Position numbers and translations under genes: made by a program. Shown piece after piece: positions 7,006 through 19,744 of a DNA stretch of 40,367 nt. Numbering within the stretch: the first letter of the stretch is position 1; each line of letters opens with the position of its first letter. The notes below the pieces were generated by a model. The model was not told where the DNA came from, ran no database searches, and worked only from the letters and a program-made list of their open reading frames with translations. The stretch is from Clostridia bacterium (GTDB lineage: Bacteria > Bacillota > Clostridia > Oscillospirales > CAG-272), in contig JAFTKO010000019.1 in NCBI GenBank assembly GCA_017453205.1, positions 1-40,367 on the forward strand. Direction: 5' to 3'.

Positions 7006-7857
7006 TTATTGACCGATGATACTCAACAGGTGATTTTTAGCGGTAAGAATATCCGCTGCAGGATCGGAGCCGACCTCACGCTCGATGGTTAGGAAGCCGC
7101 GATAGCCGATGTCGTCCAGCGCATTCAGATACGCATTGAAATCTACACTTCCCTCTCCCAACGGAACCTCACGGAAGAATTCGATACCCTCTATATCCTC
7201 GGGCTTTGGCGTAACTCGGTAAATATACTCGGGGTTGGTACGGTACAGCATCACACCGTCCTTGGCGTGGGTATGAACAATGTAATCCTTGAGGTTATAA
7301 ACGGCTTGCACGGGGTCATCTCCTGTCACCATGACAAGGTTTGCGGGATCGAGATTGACCGCCACGCCGGTGGAATGCAAACCGTCCAAAAACTTTTTGA
7401 GCACCGCCGAGGTCTCGGGACCGGTCTCAATGGCAAAATGTGCGCCGAGACTGTCGGCATAACGGCTCAACTCAAAGCAAGCCTGTTGCATGATCCCGTA
7501 ACGCTCGACCGTGGGATCCTCGGGAACGACACCGATATGCGTGGTCACCACGTCTGTCTCCAAATCCTTTGCCAAATCAAGAATACGTTTGGACTTTTCG
7601 ATCAGCTCGGGGTTCAGCTCGGGGTTGAAAAAGCCTCTGCCGAGATCTCCGCAGAGCGCCGAGAATTTGAGACCGTATGATTTGACCATATCCAACAGCT
7701 CACGACGCTTGGCGGGAGTCAGATTTTCGGGAACGTTTTCCCCTTTGACCGCATACATTTGGATTCCTTGCGCGCCCAGCTCCGCGGCCTTTCGGATCGC
7801 TGTCTCCGTGTCCGTTCGGAAGGAGTCAATAATAACTCCAATGGGAAATTGGTACAT
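7006..7857 (-). CDS. Sugar phosphate isomerase/epimerase (TIM barrel)
   Basis: A 283-residue xylose isomerase-like barrel protein, first gene of the leftward operon. Landmarks are LGAQGIQMYAVKGE, VVTTHIGVVPEDP, FAIETGPETSAVLKKFL (metal-binding Glu), VNLDPANLVMV, HTHAKDGVML and LTIEREVGSDP. It differs strongly from the isomerase at 5042-5920, so this is not a recent duplication. AGGTGG precedes the ATG. A role in converting a keto-sugar or inositol intermediate fits the context; the exact substrate is unknown. Confidence 0.87.
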   Translation of the reverse strand: MYQFPIGVIIDSFRTDTETAIRKAAELGAQGIQMYAVKGENVPENLTPAKRRELLDMVKSYGLKFSALCGDLGRGFFNPELNPELIEKSKRILDLAKDLETDVVTTHIGVVPEDPTVERYGIMQQACFELSRYADSLGAHFAIETGPETSAVLKKFLDGLHSTGVAVNLDPANLVMVTGDDPVQAVYNLKDYIVHTHAKDGVMLYRTNPEYIYRVTPKPEDIEGIEFFREVPLGEGSVDFNAYLNALDDIGYRGFLTIEREVGSDPAADILTAKNHLLSIIGQ

Positions 7858-14135: not shown

Positions 14136-14306
14136 TTATTCTATCACCGACCGTATTTGATCCGCATATGCGTTTTCAAGACCAAGCGATGAAATCTTTT
14201 GCGGCAATTCCCCAAAATCCTTTCCATTCACCAGCGTCAACGCTTCCAACAGCTTTGGCAGGTTGTTGTAATAGGTGTAGCTGTTGCCGATAAACAGAAT
14301 TTTCAT
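14136..14306 (-). pseudogene. Truncated SGNH/DUF4886-like gene start
   Basis: A 56-codon frame, MKILFIGNSYTYYNNLPKLL and onward to SVIE, with a strong AGGAGG site 11 bases upstream. The start is the block I motif of SGNH hydrolases in the DUF4886 group (KILFIGNSYTYYN...P..L...), including the GNS nucleophile region. Full-length members have roughly 200-300 residues, so this is only the first 30 residues joined to an unrelated 26-residue tail (GELPQKISSLGLENAYADQI). It is most likely the residue of an internal deletion. Whether the short peptide is made is unknown. Confidence 0.6.
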
Positions 14307-14424
14307 ATTCCTTTTTCCTCCTGTAGCCTATGATCGATCTTCGGCACATACGCTTCGTTGATCTGCAACTATGCGGGGTGCGTGCGGAAACAAACTCCTC
14401 CCCCGTTGTTTGTGTTCAATCGCT

Positions 14425-14994
14425 TTAAAGCAAAAACTCCCCCGTATTTTCTTTCAAAAAACAAACGATCATTTGTATCTTATCGGTCTTGTGTGCGATA
14501 TAAAACCGTTGTTTCCAATTTTCATCCACTAAACGACTTTGCGTAATGTTAGTGCGCACCAAGGTCTTGCCTTGTATTACACACTCCAAGTTACGGTCAT
14601 TGACACTCACCTGTACATAGCACTCACCCAATTCATAAACAAATTCGTTTTCCATATGTTTTTGACGGAATTGACAAGTATACCCGTGATCAACCAAAAA
14701 TTGAAATTGCCGTACAACATATTCATAGTAGTATACCATCGGATCATTCGCTTGTTTATCTTTTTTTCTTTTTACCAAATAACAGATAATTCCAACAATC
14801 GGAAAAACAATCATTCCCCCAACAAGCATCAGCAATTCAAAAGGGATATCCTCAAGGCTCTCCCGCGGCAACAGGAACCCAATCCCCAAGCCCGCAATGA
14901 TAATCAACCAAACAATCCCCACTTCTACCAAGCCATCAAGCAGTGCGTTTTTCCAATTGCAACCGGTCTCTTTTCTATCTTTTTTGGACTTCAC
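14425..14994 (-). CDS. Two-helix membrane protein with immunity-like domain
   Basis: A 189-residue protein I do not recognise with certainty. It has a basic N-terminus, two transmembrane helices (about residues 25-43 and 54-72), a Lys-rich cytosolic stretch and a soluble C-terminal domain of about 105 residues. The phrase FQFLVDHGYTCQFRQKHMEN followed by EFVYELGECYVQVSVNDRNLECVIQ has the shape of small immunity-type domains found beside polymorphic toxins. No toxin gene is present. It ends the leftward array of small A+T-rich genes and is coupled to the next gene by ATGA overlap. Confidence 0.7.
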   Translation of the reverse strand: MKSKKDRKETGCNWKNALLDGLVEVGIVWLIIIAGLGIGFLLPRESLEDIPFELLMLVGGMIVFPIVGIICYLVKRKKDKQANDPMVYYYEYVVRQFQFLVDHGYTCQFRQKHMENEFVYELGECYVQVSVNDRNLECVIQGKTLVRTNITQSRLVDENWKQRFYIAHKTDKIQMIVCFLKENTGEFLL

Positions 14995-15482
14995 GGCAGT
15001 CTCCTCCCGTTCCCCTTGGAAATATTCGTGTAATCCATACGTATTTCATATCCGTAATGATGTAAAATATCTCTCACCTTTTTCTCCTGTTTCTCCGTTG
15101 CCATTGCAATGATGATCTCTTTGGAAGCGGCGCTAACGATATAAGCCTCCACGCAACAGGTTCCCCCTTGAAAATCAAAGACCTCTGTTTGTTTTTTTAC
15201 AATGGAAATGACCTCATGCTTTTGTATGACAGTCTTTTTCAATAAACTCTTGTAAATCATCTTGTGCTCATCAATTTCCCAATAAGTAAAACCGTATCTG
15301 AGCACGACATAAGCAGACATGATGGTACAGACAAACAACATGATAGAAAACACAATTCCGGTTGTCATATGAATCTTTGGCAAATATATAGCCGTAGCCA
15401 CGCCCAACACAAAAAATATGATTAGGAAAATTGCGGTAACAATCGACGCAGCAATGTTGTCATATCCTCTGTATTTTTTCAT
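14991..15482 (-). CDS. Two-helix membrane protein with PH-like domain
   Basis: A 163-residue protein starting at MKKYRGYDNIA (ATG 15482, AAGGAG 6 bases upstream). A second ATG at 15539 overlaps the upstream stop by ATGA and would add 19 residues; the ribosome site favours the shorter form. Two transmembrane helices (about residues 10-34 and 43-62) are followed by a soluble part beginning YWEIDEHKMIYKSLLKKTVI, which looks like a bacterial pleckstrin-homology domain of the YcxB or bPH type. Function is unknown. Its stop overlaps the start of the 14425-14994 gene. Confidence 0.65.
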   Translation of the reverse strand: MKKYRGYDNIAASIVTAIFLIIFFVLGVATAIYLPKIHMTTGIVFSIMLFVCTIMSAYVVLRYGFTYWEIDEHKMIYKSLLKKTVIQKHEVISIVKKQTEVFDFQGGTCCVEAYIVSAASKEIIIAMATEKQEKKVRDILHHYGYEIRMDYTNISKGNGRRLP

Positions 15483-15535
15483 AATATCTCCTTTCCAAAC
15501 AAGCGTTTGCCGATACACCAATATCTCATCGCTTG

Positions 15536-15913
15536 TCATACGCTTTCAAGCAACCGCAACAATCCCCGCATAAAAGATGACAAAACACTTTGATCCGCAA
15601 GAAAAGTAAAGGTTAAGCTATGTTCTTTCGCATCCGCATATACTGTTCCGCGAATTTCAAGACTTCCCGTTTTATTCAATTCAAAAAGGACTTTACTGCC
15701 ATAGCAAATATCACACAACTCCACCGTCTTTCTTTGAAAATCATATAATTCTTGTAATTCGCAAACAAACTGCCTAAACTTTTTGATGTCATATTCGCAC
15801 TCTCCCACTCCCGAAAAAGCTCCGGAACCGGAAACCACCAAAAGGTGAAAGGTCGTATTATATGGATTTCCTCTTTTGACCTCGTTGGGATAGACTTGAA
15901 AGTCATCGATCAC
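15536..15913 (-). CDS. WapI-like immunity-type protein
   Basis: A soluble protein of at least 125 residues. GTG at 15913 is the first standard start, but it has no ribosome site; AGGAG (15956-15960) lies far upstream and sits 6 bases before an in-frame ATA at 15947-15949 that would give a more natural N-terminus (xKAELLYLGNSIVIDDFQ). The sequence SGSGAFSGVGECEYDIKKFRQF and the ending TFTFLADQSVLSSFMRGLLRLL are reminiscent of WapI-family and related immunity proteins. No cognate toxin is visible. The assignment is from remembered pattern and is tentative. Confidence 0.6.
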   Translation of the reverse strand: MIDDFQVYPNEVKRGNPYNTTFHLLVVSGSGAFSGVGECEYDIKKFRQFVCELQELYDFQRKTVELCDICYGSKVLFELNKTGSLEIRGTVYADAKEHSLTFTFLADQSVLSSFMRGLLRLLESV

Positions 15914-16003
15914 GATCGAATTGCCAAGATATAAAAGTTCTGCTTTTATTGTAATCTCCTTATCAGTTAAATTAAGGAAGTAAAGGCTTAAATTAAAACA
16001 AGG

Positions 16004-16357
16004 TTATTTTTTTGAAAGTGCAATCAATTCTTCCTTTGTAAACTCCTTATATCGGTTGTTTTGAAACATCGAGGTAGTAGTGTCGGATAGATTTCGCATA
16101 AGTGATTTAAGATTGATTTCTTTTGGGAACTCGATAAAATTACCGTTTTTATCTTCCGACCGATGAACACAAAAAATAAATTGACCGTTTTCCCAATCCA
16201 TATCAAATGTATTCGCTACCGACAAAGGATCCTTCTGATCTTCAATCATTTTTTCGTAAATAAACTCAAACAAGGCTTCCTTGCCTATTTTTATCAATCG
16301 AACGCTGTTTTCGTTTAATATGTTCTTGCTTTTCATTTTGTTTTTTATTATTTTCAT
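16004..16357 (-). CDS. Small soluble hypothetical protein
   Basis: A 117-residue, charged protein without signal or membrane segments. The ATG at 16357 lies 2 bp after the stop of the upstream gene, with a weak GGAG 13 bases ahead. FEFIYEKMIEDQKDPLSVANTFDMDW is the most distinctive part. I do not recognise the family. Its size, strand and spacing fit the other members of the small-gene array. Base composition is strongly A+T rich. Confidence 0.6.
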   Translation of the reverse strand: MKIIKNKMKSKNILNENSVRLIKIGKEALFEFIYEKMIEDQKDPLSVANTFDMDWENGQFIFCVHRSEDKNGNFIEFPKEINLKSLMRNLSDTTTSMFQNNRYKEFTKEELIALSKK

Positions 16358-16359
16358 TT

Positions 16360-16836
16360 TTAGCACTTTTCTCCATAGGTTTGAGACATTCCGTGTGTAC
16401 ACCCAACCTTGTTTATCATAAAATCACATAATTTCTCTTGTACGGTAGACTCTTTATTTTTGCCATGGAACAGACGAACAAACAGAATATACATGCCAAC
16501 ACATATCAAGCACAGCAATATAAGAGGTAAAATAACAATAATCCCCAAAACCGTTATCATTTTTTGTAACAAATTTTTTCTTTTATTTGGTTTATCATTC
16601 CATGGCACAGTTACAATTTTTCCGTTAATGACAGAACCACCGTTTTCATCGGTCGTAACCCTTGCTCGATATAAAATTCTGCCGCCGTGATTACTGTCTA
16701 TTTGCAAATCAAAATCGTTTTGGATGTGTTCGAATTTAAAATTTGATTGATCGGCATTCTTTTTTATTCTTTCAATAACATCGCCAAAAGAAGAAACACA
16801 GTAAAACACAAAAGCCCCATCCTTTGTTTTTTTCAT
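16360..16836 (-). CDS. Single-pass membrane hypothetical protein
   Basis: A 158-residue protein starting at MKKTKDGAFVFYCVSSFGDV (ATG 16836, AAGGAG 6 bases upstream). A soluble N-terminal domain of about 90 residues (FEHIQNDFDLQIDSNHGGRILYRA) is followed by one strong membrane helix (about residues 93-121) and a basic Cys-containing tail. I do not recognise the family. The region just ahead of its start contains a degenerate copy of the rlmD 3' end (16852-16877), whose frame runs on into the ribosome site. Confidence 0.6.
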   Translation of the reverse strand: MKKTKDGAFVFYCVSSFGDVIERIKKNADQSNFKFEHIQNDFDLQIDSNHGGRILYRARVTTDENGGSVINGKIVTVPWNDKPNKRKNLLQKMITVLGIIVILPLILLCLICVGMYILFVRLFHGKNKESTVQEKLCDFMINKVGCTHGMSQTYGEKC

Positions 16837-16851
16837 CGATACTCCTTTCTC

Positions 16852-16877
16852 ATGAGACAAACAACACTTTCAAAATG
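16852..16877 (-). repeat. rlmD 3'-end repeat, copy C (degenerate)
   Basis: Compared with copy B (17494-17519) 21 of 26 bases match. In the right frame it encodes HFESVVCL, against HVESVVCL in RlmD. It precedes the gene at 16360-16836. Confidence 0.65.
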
Positions 16878-16890
16878 GGCAAAAGATTTA

Positions 16891-17127
16891 TCAATATGTA
16901 TATGTAATAAAACCGTCAACCCAAAAGGTTTTATCAATGAATTTTGGTTTGAAAATCCGAAACACTTTTTTAAGCCTAAAACCTTCTTTTGTATCGCAAA
17001 ATCCTACCTTTCGTTTCAGTTTTTCAATTGTATCAACTGCATTTTCTTTTGAAGTGTATATTCCTATATCTTTCCGCTCAAAGTGAGTACCTAATTTGTA
17101 TTTGTGAGTAACTTTATAAAGAATCAT
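16891..17127 (-). CDS. Small DUF7336-like protein
   Basis: A 78-residue protein, MILYKVTHKYKLGTHFERKD and so on, with GIYTSKENAVDTIEKLKRKVGFCD and a Phe/Trp-rich end (FWVDGFITY). The pattern of a beta strand, 'IGIYTSKENA' and a closing 'GF' strand fits the small DUF7336 family often encoded in toxin-immunity neighbourhoods. GGAG is 8 bases before the ATG, inside the end of the upstream gene, which it overlaps by 14 bp. Function is unknown. Confidence 0.65.
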   Translation of the reverse strand: MILYKVTHKYKLGTHFERKDIGIYTSKENAVDTIEKLKRKVGFCDTKEGFRLKKVFRIFKPKFIDKTFWVDGFITYTY

Positions 17128-17470
17128 TTTTTATTCTCCAACCGAATTTATCTTTGAAGTCATCAAAGCACTTTTTACAAATCCAATACCGCATATCTTT
17201 TGTACAATAAAATTCGCACTCAATATCCGTCATTGCCTTATCCCAACAAAAATCACAATGCTCATGCCAAAAATGCTGTATTTTTTCACCTTGGAGATAG
17301 TTTTTGGCGTTAGGAAAATGTTTCATGTGGTCTAAGGCATTCTTCAAAACAGTTTGATAAAATGCATTTTTCTCAACATATGCCTGTTCCCAAAATTTGG
17401 GGAAAGTTATTTTATAAAGAACTGCATTTGTCAAATATTCTTCTTGCCCATTAAGTCTCCAATCTTCCAT
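17114..17470 (-). CDS. Cys/His-rich protein, possible zinc binder
   Basis: A 118-residue soluble protein starting MEDWRLNGQEEYLTNAVLYK (ATG 17470, AAGGAG 8 bases upstream). The second half carries HFWHEHCDFCWDKAM, then CEFYCTKDMRYWICKKCFDDF, i.e. two CxxC-type pairs plus His that could form a zinc ribbon. Similar proteins are widespread in Firmicutes as unnamed small proteins; I know of no proven function. The sequence directly upstream (17494-17519) is a copy of the rlmD 3' end. Confidence 0.7.
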   Translation of the reverse strand: MEDWRLNGQEEYLTNAVLYKITFPKFWEQAYVEKNAFYQTVLKNALDHMKHFPNAKNYLQGEKIQHFWHEHCDFCWDKAMTDIECEFYCTKDMRYWICKKCFDDFKDKFGWRIKNDSL

Positions 17471-17493
17471 GGTAAATTCTCCTTTACTTTTTT

Positions 17494-17519
17494 GTGAGAC
17501 AAACGACACTCTCGACATG
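17494..17519 (-). repeat. rlmD 3'-end repeat, copy B
   Basis: 24 of 26 bases match the true 3' end of rlmD (18366-18391). In frame it encodes HVESVVCLTKK and a stop, exactly the RlmD C-terminus, but nothing upstream of the His codon resembles rlmD. The homology boundary at this codon is what an attachment-site core would give. Confidence 0.85.
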
Positions 17520-17586
17520 GGTCATAAGACCAAAAGGTCTCAAAATCGGTCAAAAACGGGGGTTGTAATACCTTAAAGTCTCAAAT

Positions 17587-18162
17587 TTAGGAGAGGTCAT
17601 AAGACGTATATCCGCTATCGATAATGGCTTGCCTTAATGCTTCAAAACGTTTTCTTTTTCCGCCCACTAAAAGGCTATTACTTTTTTTGAAAACGAAAAG
17701 GCTTCTGAACATAAACTTAATCGAAACGCTTGACGAATAAAATTTGAAATACCATTTTGTAATATCTCGTTCTGCTACGCAAGATGCAGTTGGACCATTC
17801 ATTGCGCAATCCTCGTAACTAATGAAATGCTTTCTGTCAAATTCGTCGGAATAAGTAATACCTTCATTAATGATGTGAACAATGCTTGTATCATTCATTT
17901 CAAGCTCGGTTAACCCTTTTTGCTGTTCATGCACAAACTCCAAAGCATAGAAATATATATCTTGATCTTCCCACTCGCCCGCTTCTCTTTTTCCGTTTAG
18001 ATATGTATGGTATCCCCATTGGCAGGACTCAATCTCAAGCGTATCGGAATTGTAATGAATAATGATTTTATTGTTTTCTAAGCTGATATTCAGAACAGCA
18101 TCGCTTAAATCATCGTACAATTCTTCGATGCTTTTGTAATTTCGATGATAAACTTTATACAA
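17587..18162 (-). CDS. Hypothetical immunity-like protein
   Basis: A 191-residue soluble protein. The only in-frame start near the ribosome site is TTG at 18162, with AAAGGAG about 15 bases upstream; an in-frame stop lies just before. Regions: a beta-rich first half (IIIHYNSDTLEIESCQWGYH), a middle with WEDQDIYFYALEFVHEQQ and an end KRKRFEALRQAIIDSGYTSYDLS, a C-terminal form seen in several small Firmicute families of immunity type. Function is unknown. It is the cassette closest to rlmD. Confidence 0.65.
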   Translation of the reverse strand: MYKVYHRNYKSIEELYDDLSDAVLNISLENNKIIIHYNSDTLEIESCQWGYHTYLNGKREAGEWEDQDIYFYALEFVHEQQKGLTELEMNDTSIVHIINEGITYSDEFDRKHFISYEDCAMNGPTASCVAERDITKWYFKFYSSSVSIKFMFRSLFVFKKSNSLLVGGKRKRFEALRQAIIDSGYTSYDLS

Positions 18163-18355
18163 CTTTTCGTTACTTTACTCCTTTCGATATGTTATACTAA
18201 ACTGCTGTAAAATGTTTTTTCGAGTTTTGCTCAAAATCATCATTTGTCCCAACGCAAAATTGGAGCATTTTTGGATTTTGAACACCGCTTTTTTTAAATT
18301 TAATTAAGAACCACTCAAAAAGGCTAGATTTTGCCCATTTTAAGCCGATTTTGGC

Positions 18356-19744
18356 TCATTTTTTCGTGAGACACACGACACTCTCGACGTGTCCTGTCCT
18401 TGGAAACATATCCACCGGTGTCACCTCACCGATCTCATACCCTAACTCTTTGAATATCACACAATCCCTTGCCAGCGTATCGGGATTACAGGAAACGTAG
18501 ACCACCTTGGGAAACTTCCGCTCCGCAATGTATTCGATCAGCTCGGACGTACTGCCCTTGCGCGGAGGATCAAACACCACCGTGGTATTGGCGGGATCAA
18601 TCGCGCCACGTGACGCCTCGGCGTTGGCAAGTAGCTTTCTCGCATCGGATGCGTCGCCGCAATAAAAGGATACGTGCGCAATGCCGTTGCGCTTGGCATT
18701 CTCGGCGGCGCATTTCACCGCTTCGTCCACAATCTCAATGCCGATAACCTCTTTAGCACAATCTGCCATCGAGAGCCCGATGGTACCAATGCCGCAGTAG
18801 AGATCCAACAGTGTCTCATTGCCTGTCAACCGCGCTTTTTCCTTGGCAATTCCGTAAAGCAGCTCGCAGGCGTTATGATTGACTTGATAAAACGCTCCCG
18901 CCGAAATGCGAAACCGCAGTCCGCACAGCTCGTCCTCGATCCACTCTCGCCCCGCCAAAAGACGGTATCGCTCCCCCAGCACCACATTGGTGTTCTCGGT
19001 GTTGACATTGACAAGAACGCTTTTGACGTTGGGAAAATTTGCGGTCAAGCCGTCGGCAAGCGCAGACTCATGCGGCAGTTTTTCCCCGTTGAGTACCAAA
19101 CAGACCATGACCTCGCCCGTCACCGCCCCATAACGCAAATAGATATGGCGCAACAAGCCGGCACGCTTCTCTTCTTCATAGGCTTTGATTTTATTCTCGT
19201 CGCAAAACCGACAGATGTACGCCGTCAGCTCGCCAAACACGGACGGCTGAAGCTTGCAGTCATCCGCCGGAACAATGCGGTGTGTGCCCGTGGCAAAAAA
19301 ACCCGCCTCCATGCCCTCTTTGCCGTTGCGGACGGGATACTGCGCCTTATTACGGTAGCCGCAAAGCTCCCCCGTATGTCTCACAGACGCAACCTTGATA
19401 TCACCAAGCCCCGCCTTACGAAAAGCGTTTTGCACATACGCGCGTTTCAGCTCGAGCTCATGCTCGTATTTGACATGGCGATAGACACACCCGCCGCACC
19501 CCGCCGCGCGGCAATCTGCCTCACAACGCAGAGGGGACGGAACGAGGATTTTTTCGATCCTCGCCACCAAATAGTTTTTATTAACTTTGATCACACGGGC
19601 GTCAATGACATCCCCCGTCACGGCATCGCGCACAAACACGACTTGACCGCGTCCCGCGTCGGCAGTCGGCAGATGTGCCACACCGCAACCGAGATTATTG
19701 ATCTCCTCTACATCCAACCGAACGATCTCATTCTTGCGCATCAC
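18356..19744 (-). CDS. rlmD: 23S rRNA (uracil-5-)-methyltransferase RlmD/RumA family
   Basis: A 462-residue SAM-dependent RNA m5U methyltransferase. An N-terminal TRAM-type domain (VRLDVEEINNLGCGVAHL) is followed by the iron-sulfur cysteines (Cys83-Gly-Gly-Cys86 with Cys78 or Cys74, and Cys163), the SAM motif DLYCGIGTIGL (314-324), FDPPRKG (391-397) and the catalytic Cys419 in YVSCNPDTLARD. The C-terminus DMFPRTGHVESVVCLTKK is complete. The start is GTG 19744 (AAGGAG 8 bases upstream), with ATG 19741 as alternative; it overlaps the phosphoesterase stop. The 3' end is duplicated twice downstream, marking it as a probable integration site. RlmCD-type specificity for U747/U1939 is possible. Confidence 0.93.
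   Translation of the reverse strand: MMRKNEIVRLDVEEINNLGCGVAHLPTADAGRGQVVFVRDAVTGDVIDARVIKVNKNYLVARIEKILVPSPLRCEADCRAAGCGGCVYRHVKYEHELELKRAYVQNAFRKAGLGDIKVASVRHTGELCGYRNKAQYPVRNGKEGMEAGFFATGTHRIVPADDCKLQPSVFGELTAYICRFCDENKIKAYEEEKRAGLLRHIYLRYGAVTGEVMVCLVLNGEKLPHESALADGLTANFPNVKSVLVNVNTENTNVVLGERYRLLAGREWIEDELCGLRFRISAGAFYQVNHNACELLYGIAKEKARLTGNETLLDLYCGIGTIGLSMADCAKEVIGIEIVDEAVKCAAENAKRNGIAHVSFYCGDASDARKLLANAEASRGAIDPANTTVVFDPPRKGSTSELIEYIAERKFPKVVYVSCNPDTLARDCVIFKELGYEIGEVTPVDMFPRTGHVESVVCLTKK
18366..18391 (-). repeat. rlmD 3'-end repeat, copy A (in the intact gene)
   Basis: The genuine last codons of rlmD (from His452). This stretch corresponds to the segment known as the insertion target of serine-recombinase elements in the rum gene of streptococci (established for other species; applied here by analogy). 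Confidence 0.8.

Follow-up and report, generated by a model that had tools for sequence, protein, structure and literature searches.

In staphylococci, staphylococcal cassette chromosome (SCC) elements and composite islands lie at rlmH, carry ccr serine recombinases and extend over tens of kilobases. Cis-mobilizable elements (CIMEs) are att-flanked segments that lack an integrase and are mobilized in trans. The serine-integrase elements of streptococcal rumA are described as leaving repeats of 2-21 bp, with their ends in rumA and in the integrase gene (PMC4701971). Integrons, in the account given in PMC9024848, are very rare and nearly absent in Firmicutes. The window analyzed here is a whole stretch of 40,367 nucleotides from a Clostridia bacterium (Oscillospirales, CAG-272; contig JAFTKO010000019.1). 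It contains rlmD, a gene of the 23S rRNA uracil-5-methyltransferase family (P0001, 18356-19744, minus strand), whose 3' end recurs twice in the adjoining DNA. The locus is probably a small gene-cassette array that is anchored at the 3' end of rlmD and has decayed in part, with units moved by a site-specific recombinase acting in trans. The publications searched, as far as their available text extends, hold no recognized description of such arrays.

The reading frame of rlmD is intact and ends with a stop codon at 18356-18358. Its last coding bases, which encode HVESVVCLTK, are the first copy of a 28-bp core (18364-18391); the second copy is at 17492-17519 and the third at 16850-16877, all on the minus strand like rlmD itself. 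Over 26 bases the rlmD tail and copy 2 have 24 identities, copies 2 and 3 have 21, and the rlmD tail and copy 3 have 19. When the window was searched for the rlmD tail at up to 3 mismatches, the matches were 18366-18391 and 17494-17519 alone (chance expectation 0.00, 100 shuffles). Exactly three positions have at least 19 identities to copy 2; 20 block shuffles gave 0.05 such positions on average. Copy 3 is degenerate, with E-values of 8.7e-4 against the site profile R1 described below and 5e-4 with nhmmer. The original prediction, made from the window alone, had recognized these three copies of the rlmD 3' end and had taken them for short attachment-like repeats, not duplicated genes; both points are borne out. 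Its statement that nothing upstream of the core matches is nearly exact. In relatives, paired rlmD and site sequences (n = 65) share little upstream of the core, and what departs from the statement is a TT(T) at -15 to -13, found in 98%, 97% and 51% of the pairs. At copy 2 the repeat continues upstream for about 65 bp (17520-17583), and this extension is kept in relatives and missing at rlmD. Between rlmD and the major facilitator superfamily gene the DNA is AT-rich, with GC content falling to 0.31 compared with 0.50-0.56 over rlmD.

Relatives have further copies of the core downstream of rlmD, each preceded by a conserved TTTG...TCTTGACC and about 40 bp that rlmD lacks. These sites take two forms, a long one with two TATACCTTTTGG subrepeats and a short one with a single subrepeat. 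R1, a sequence-only profile built from an alignment of 18 site copies, matches 18 of 60 near genomes, the window's own included; G003 is matched at its rlmD tail only, which leaves right-end sites in 17. Matches were also obtained in 17 of 394 genomes of the order sample, from five families, and in 4 of 391 genomes of the class sample, each count including the window's own genome. The other three of the class sample belong to two families outside the order, so the site family spans seven families of the class. A DNA pattern found 62 stretches in named genome contigs, all from metagenome-assembled genomes (MAGs) titled as Clostridia, Clostridiales or Oscillospiraceae, and these overlap in part with the genomes of the G-numbered samples. 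The gut hosts of the RGIG-titled MAGs are sheep, goat, roe deer, water deer, water buffalo or yak; no host appears in the SIG titles. Several contigs end 0.1-0.63 kb behind rlmD (G032:C41, G024:C111, G025:C175, G015:C124, G034:C58, G001:C54, G020:C39 and G002:C114). Such ends suggest that MAG assemblies break at the repeat and that arrays are probably undercounted.

Sites are present in 75 of 84 sequences scanned, and the 106 segments between them reduce to 89 unique cassettes when exact duplicates are dropped, a set that still includes one near-duplicate pair (L032/L136). No site has the opposite orientation, and 85 of the 89 cassettes have their longest open reading frame (ORF) on the strand of rlmD. 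The 86 segments that come from the 62 named stretches have a median length of 692 bp. The right end of each cassette begins at the stop codon of its gene, and the distance from that stop codon to the end of the next core has a median of 93 nt (interquartile range 88-98, outliers 331 and 490; 86 of the 89 cassettes). In 31 of 86 cassettes no more than 25 nt separate the core from the beginning of the gene, and starts of about 200 bp form one connected family in 38 of 89, a family that mixes promoter-like leaders and hairpin-element starts. The promoter-like start family is found in 10 of 22 first cassettes and 28 of 67 internal ones, which rules out a start fixed at the array head in the manner of the integron promoter Pc. 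Median GC content is 0.38 in cassettes and 0.54 in rlmD. The encoded proteins form 27 clusters of at least two members and 49 singletons, although a few clusters bring together two copies of the same genome or doubtful ORFs. Most cargo is orphan: 56 representatives match 21 Pfam families with one member each, including glycerate kinase, GH20, GH43, GIY-YIG and NERD, and none of the 56 matches a recombinase or conjugation family in Pfam. The mobile unit is made up of a core, an optional leader, usually one gene and a right end of about 65 bp.

In most of the loci tested the array is anchored at rlmD. In 42 of the 75 loci the fetched stretch itself includes the whole rlmD tail, on the same strand. 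Eleven of the 33 loci lacking it were examined by genome search, with L117 as a control, and rlmD coordinates lie directly upstream in 8; L082 (as L277) and L113 (as L330) were confirmed on sequence, and the rest are contig matches by position. Many of the other 22 are at contig or stretch ends. No rlmD match was obtained in the genome of L106. L110 and L281 each have two rlmD-like genes, and sites follow both. The likeness of cores is 0.779 within loci and 0.734 between loci (no significance test), and on this small excess the idea that cores match the host's own rlmD was rejected. G059 is a striking single case of a core matching its host's own rlmD. In L047 (G017) and L048 (G014) the same 25 bp or so follow the rlmD stop codon, after which the genes of the two loci differ; 674 bp further along, L047 carries another stretch resembling the rlmD tail (5 mismatches in 28). 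These two loci are maybe a second array lineage with another site.

Homologous cassettes occupy differing positions and neighborhoods, and they have been exchanged between distant hosts, their DNA identity being far above the divergence of the hosts. Cassettes of L129 and L082 are 94.5% identical over 362 bp (RlmD 38.8%), another pair is 93.8% identical over 436 bp (RlmD 51.9%), and those of G036 and G745 (L051/L113) are 89.5% identical over 295 bp (RlmD 29.7%), the genome of L113 being outside the order; the first cassette of the window is 86.1% identical to L117 over 711 bp (RlmD 46.1%) and 90.8% identical to L084 over 632 bp (RlmD 32.4%), and the low RlmD identities may compare paralogues, with a single rlmD match found in the genomes of L117, L129 and L113.

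Turnover between a fixed rlmD and a fixed distal flank is seen most clearly in comparisons of sister genomes. Between L094 and L132, 1515 bp covering rlmD and the first cassette are 96.8% identical, and divergence begins inside the next site; L125, from the same MAG as L094 by title, is 97% identical to L132 on both sides of an extra unit of about 0.66 kb. G413 and L132 share rlmD (93.7% over 1093 bp) and the distal flank (88.4% over 4334 bp), and between the two the DNA matches are sites only (at most 111 bp), with one distant protein family common to both. From the last site onward, L109 and L106 are 93.0% identical over 5796 bp; before that site they have one 114-bp match. Segments thus differ between the same rlmD and distal flank, in agreement with the stepwise gain behind rlmD that had been proposed. 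The comparison of relatives that the original prediction had suggested finds a gene order that is not invariant, and the repeats sit between genes, which argues against the possibility it had raised that they are conserved motifs of the downstream genes.

The position of exchange was approached through 65 homologous pairs starting at the core, of 100 pairs, which were compared with control pairs. The cores preceding homologous cassettes are more alike than those of controls (0.834 and 0.720, p 0.0002, 65 pairs), while the 22 nt before that core give 0.724 and 0.671 (25 pairs; no significance test). The effect rises towards the gene, from 0.808 against 0.749 in core bases 1-10, through 0.829 against 0.716 in bases 11-19, to 0.867 against 0.690 in bases 20-28. 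Pairs with the rlmD tail in one genome and an internal core in the other also have the excess (0.839 and 0.754, p 0.0004, 30 pairs). Since the excess rises towards the gene and is also present in rlmD/internal pairs, the right part of the core appears to belong to the downstream cassette. The comparison shows that core and downstream gene travel together, and the end of rlmD would be re-encoded by the first cassette.

A mechanism can be proposed on this basis. A site-specific recombinase, supplied in trans, would most likely carry out the exchange within the left part of the core. The rlmD tail and the internal sites would both accept a free unit, presumably a circular intermediate, always in the same orientation, and the core brought in by the unit would re-encode the last RlmD codons while the protein end is kept. 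Genes without a leader would probably be read from rlmD or from an upstream leader.

Several observations weigh against this proposal. The core following the cassette also has a slight, non-significant excess of likeness (0.665 and 0.621, p 0.08, 45 pairs), and the p-values above are optimistic since the 65 pairs are not independent. Sites in 2 of the 11 tested loci, L108 and L138, are not behind rlmD; judged by reading alone, the L108 cassette follows an ORF resembling an epimerase and the L138 site a large ORF. No circle or recombination junction was seen in the material, which comprises contigs of at least 3 kb and no reads. No recombinase was found in any array and none is common to all 20 array genomes, in a search that did not cover DDE and HUH transposases. 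Homologous recombination through sites of about 95 bp could also reshuffle cassettes. Beside the exception at L108 stands the observation that its cassette (7113-7553) has a core on each side with the epimerase-like ORF in place of rlmD, a possible secondary docking site.

Shuffling by ordinary homologous recombination alone, via sites of 50-95 bp and leaders of about 200 bp, would require no dedicated enzyme and would fit both the lack of a common recombinase and the likeness of sites and starts across hosts. The identity of L094 and L132, which stops inside the right end and not in the core, also fits it. Such recombination does not account for units that are bounded by the core and hold one gene each, for cores that side with the downstream gene, or for the first docking behind rlmD, in several families, where only the core is shared. 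We consider it rather unlikely, and the proposal of cassettes moved by a trans-acting enzyme is preferred.

Candidates for that enzyme were sought in the array genomes. The tyrosine recombinase family PF00589 is present in 19 of 20 searched. Large serine recombinases were rejected as the common factor, PF07508 being found in only 4 of 7 array genomes and PF00239 in only 5 of 11. Around 107 recombinase loci there is no site and no rlmD, only one core-like stretch at 7 mismatches in 26. A simple tyrosine recombinase of about 280 residues, here called B, is encoded in 11 of 20 array genomes searched, including the window's own, which has two such genes outside the array (G000:C42:119489-120334 and G000:C16:34979-35803; L213 and L214); it is also found in G284, G245, G325, G510 and G537. 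In NCBIfam it comes closest to the XerA/integron-integrase model, at 133.8 of 220 bits and so below the cut-off. B was first set aside, since it is missing from 7 of the 17 near genomes that have sites and its genes have palindromes of their own, and was kept because a recount shows co-occurrence. Of the 60 near genomes, 17 have sites, and B is found in 10 of these and in 7 of the other 43; in the window's own family the figures are 9 of 16 and 2 of 21 (p 0.003, uncorrected for relatedness), and in both exceptions, G002 and G015, the rlmD contig is broken and holds DNA behind the gene that resembles a cassette start. When genomes of 1.7 Mb or more are considered, the association is weaker (p 0.05). 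B is also absent from 9 of the 20 array genomes searched, including the 98% complete G413 and G745. No site lies near the 15 B genes, and a palindrome, ACATAAT-n-ATTATGT, follows the gene by eye, clear in 10 of the 15 and poor in 2; L218 has a second palindrome copy further on. B with its palindrome is possibly a phase-variation invertase that is nevertheless associated with arrays. In G059, which has one site, B is the only PF00589 match and has no palindrome, which speaks for keeping it as a candidate. That B moves the cassettes, a special case of the proposal preferred here, is thus neither accepted nor rejected; it is the leading candidate and, taken by itself, unlikely.

In G413 and G745 the single PF00589 match is Xer-like, which would point to the host Xer recombinase. 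The sites have no visible likeness to dif-type sites when compared by eye with the dif consensus, and Xer, looked at in array genomes only, is a housekeeping enzyme while arrays are patchy. We give this explanation little credence.

The segments could also be remnants of integrative and conjugative elements (ICEs), integrative and mobilizable elements or prophages that integrated serially at rlmD and lost their recombinases, in a CIME-like accretion. In favor are the large serine recombinases of some array genomes and the record of rumA as a target of serine integrases in streptococci, as described in PMC4701971. That account has the same target gene family; it describes an exchange in which rumA and the integrase gene swap their 3' parts, whereas in the present arrays the RlmD end is restored by a 28-bp core. 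A serine integrase gene at one end, as in those ICEs, was found neither among the 56 representatives nor at the 107 recombinase loci, and no conjugation family was found in the 56. Like SCC islands, the arrays lie at the 3' end of a gene for a 23S rRNA methyltransferase and consist of serial segments delimited by direct repeats derived from that end. They differ in having gene-sized units, a long common right end, no recombinase and rlmD in place of rlmH; no ccr-type recombinase occurs among the 56 representatives, and the PF07508 loci (4 of 7 genomes) have no nearby site. With CIMEs they share integrase-less segments between att sites, moved in trans, and differ in their gene-sized units, a right end common to seven families and a parent element that was not found. 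Three DNA patterns gave 0 stretches in viral contigs, plasmids had no match to window 16900-18391 and phages none to window 14300-18391, so phage or plasmid carriage was rejected for the patterns and queries used. Descent from such elements is very unlikely. The original prediction had linked the locus to streptococcal serine-recombinase elements, and this link fails on the 28-bp core, the mostly single-gene units and the right end at the stop codon. Its att-site idea was right in outline; the units look like gene cassettes, not remnants of serine-recombinase ICEs. It had found no recombinase in the window, and none lies within the array.

The closest likeness is to integrons, and by analogy the array appears to work like an integron cassette array. 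Both have tandem, mostly single-gene cassettes in one orientation, a 3' site at the stop codon, a fixed docking point, trade between distant hosts and cargo mostly of no assigned function. The arrays differ in docking at the coding 3' end of rlmD, in lacking an attC-like fold and in having no integrase beside them. No IntI was found in the 56 representatives; 7 tyrosine recombinases scanned with the integron-integrase models all fall below the cut-offs, the others lying outside that scan. The consensus fold of 18 sites has 4 pairs, none with compensatory change on both sides (-0.24 kcal/mol), and no attC hairpin is apparent. The window site has folding z-scores of -0.59 and -0.41, and the stronger scores of the L039 and L051 sites (-2.3 and -3.2) are due to an adjoining hairpin element. 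An Rfam scan of 6 sources gave two matches, both tRNAs in L051, and no other conserved RNA. There is no attI with Pc next to intI, as arrays begin at the rlmD tail. A true integron, or a cluster of attC sites lacking an integrase, with unusual attC sites would share the unit logic, and with no conserved site fold and a coding gene end as platform it is partly refuted and highly improbable.

In the window, all array features are on the minus strand. Cassette 1 begins with a leader of about 200 bp (18163-18363), which has a promoter-like end, belongs to the start family of 38 of 89 cassettes and may act as a promoter. Its gene, P0002 (17587-18162), has a TTG start and no assigned function. Site 1 (17492-17583), composed of the conserved right end and core copy 2, is intact, whereas site 2 (16850-16931), with core copy 3, is decayed. 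Between them are P0003 (17114-17470), which is Cys-rich and has homologues adjoining sites elsewhere, and P0004 (16891-17127), with a weak match to DUF7336; the two overlap by 14 nt. A P0003 homologue is followed by a site in L039, and P0004 homologues are directly behind a site in L121, where the gene is a separate cassette, and in L088. Segment 16878-17493, which the original prediction had described as one segment with two genes, is present and is best read as two cassettes, 2a and 2b, fused by deletion of the intervening site, given the flanking sites of the homologues. P0005 (16360-16836) is the distal gene, and a homologue is also behind the last site in G029 (L039). The small AT-rich genes P0006-P0009 (14425-16402), which retain no site, may be older cassettes. 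P0007 (15536-15913) has a weak match, below the cut-off, to the WapI-like immunity family PF24716 (1.6e-4).

A string of small hairpins was observed in L039 (15106-15684, minus strand, and the stretch upstream), its first arm an inverted copy of the preceding core. The same string is behind rlmD in L009, L011, L037, L041, L042, L045 and L051, and its first arm tracks core variants (for example in L041, L042 and L049). A gene for a 23S rRNA intervening-sequence-type protein often follows (PF05635, 3.8e-25 in L039), and related proteins are encoded in 8 cassettes. The string seems to be an element in its own right, one that inserts directly behind the core.

Whether these arrays are a second natural cassette system independent of integrons, in which single genes are traded across families and orders of gut Clostridia, docked behind rlmD with C-terminal codons rewritten by each first cassette, and moved by a recombinase in trans with B as leading candidate, is in our judgment evenly balanced. 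Such a system would be integron-like gene trading on a different platform in Clostridia, within a phylum, Firmicutes, for which PMC9024848 gives integrons as nearly absent. How single genes acquire a recombination site at the stop codon could then be studied in a second system, independent of the first. With sites, sister genomes and a candidate named, the hunt for the enzyme is now concrete, and R1 may serve as a marker for harvesting small accessory genes of no assigned function from gut metagenomes.

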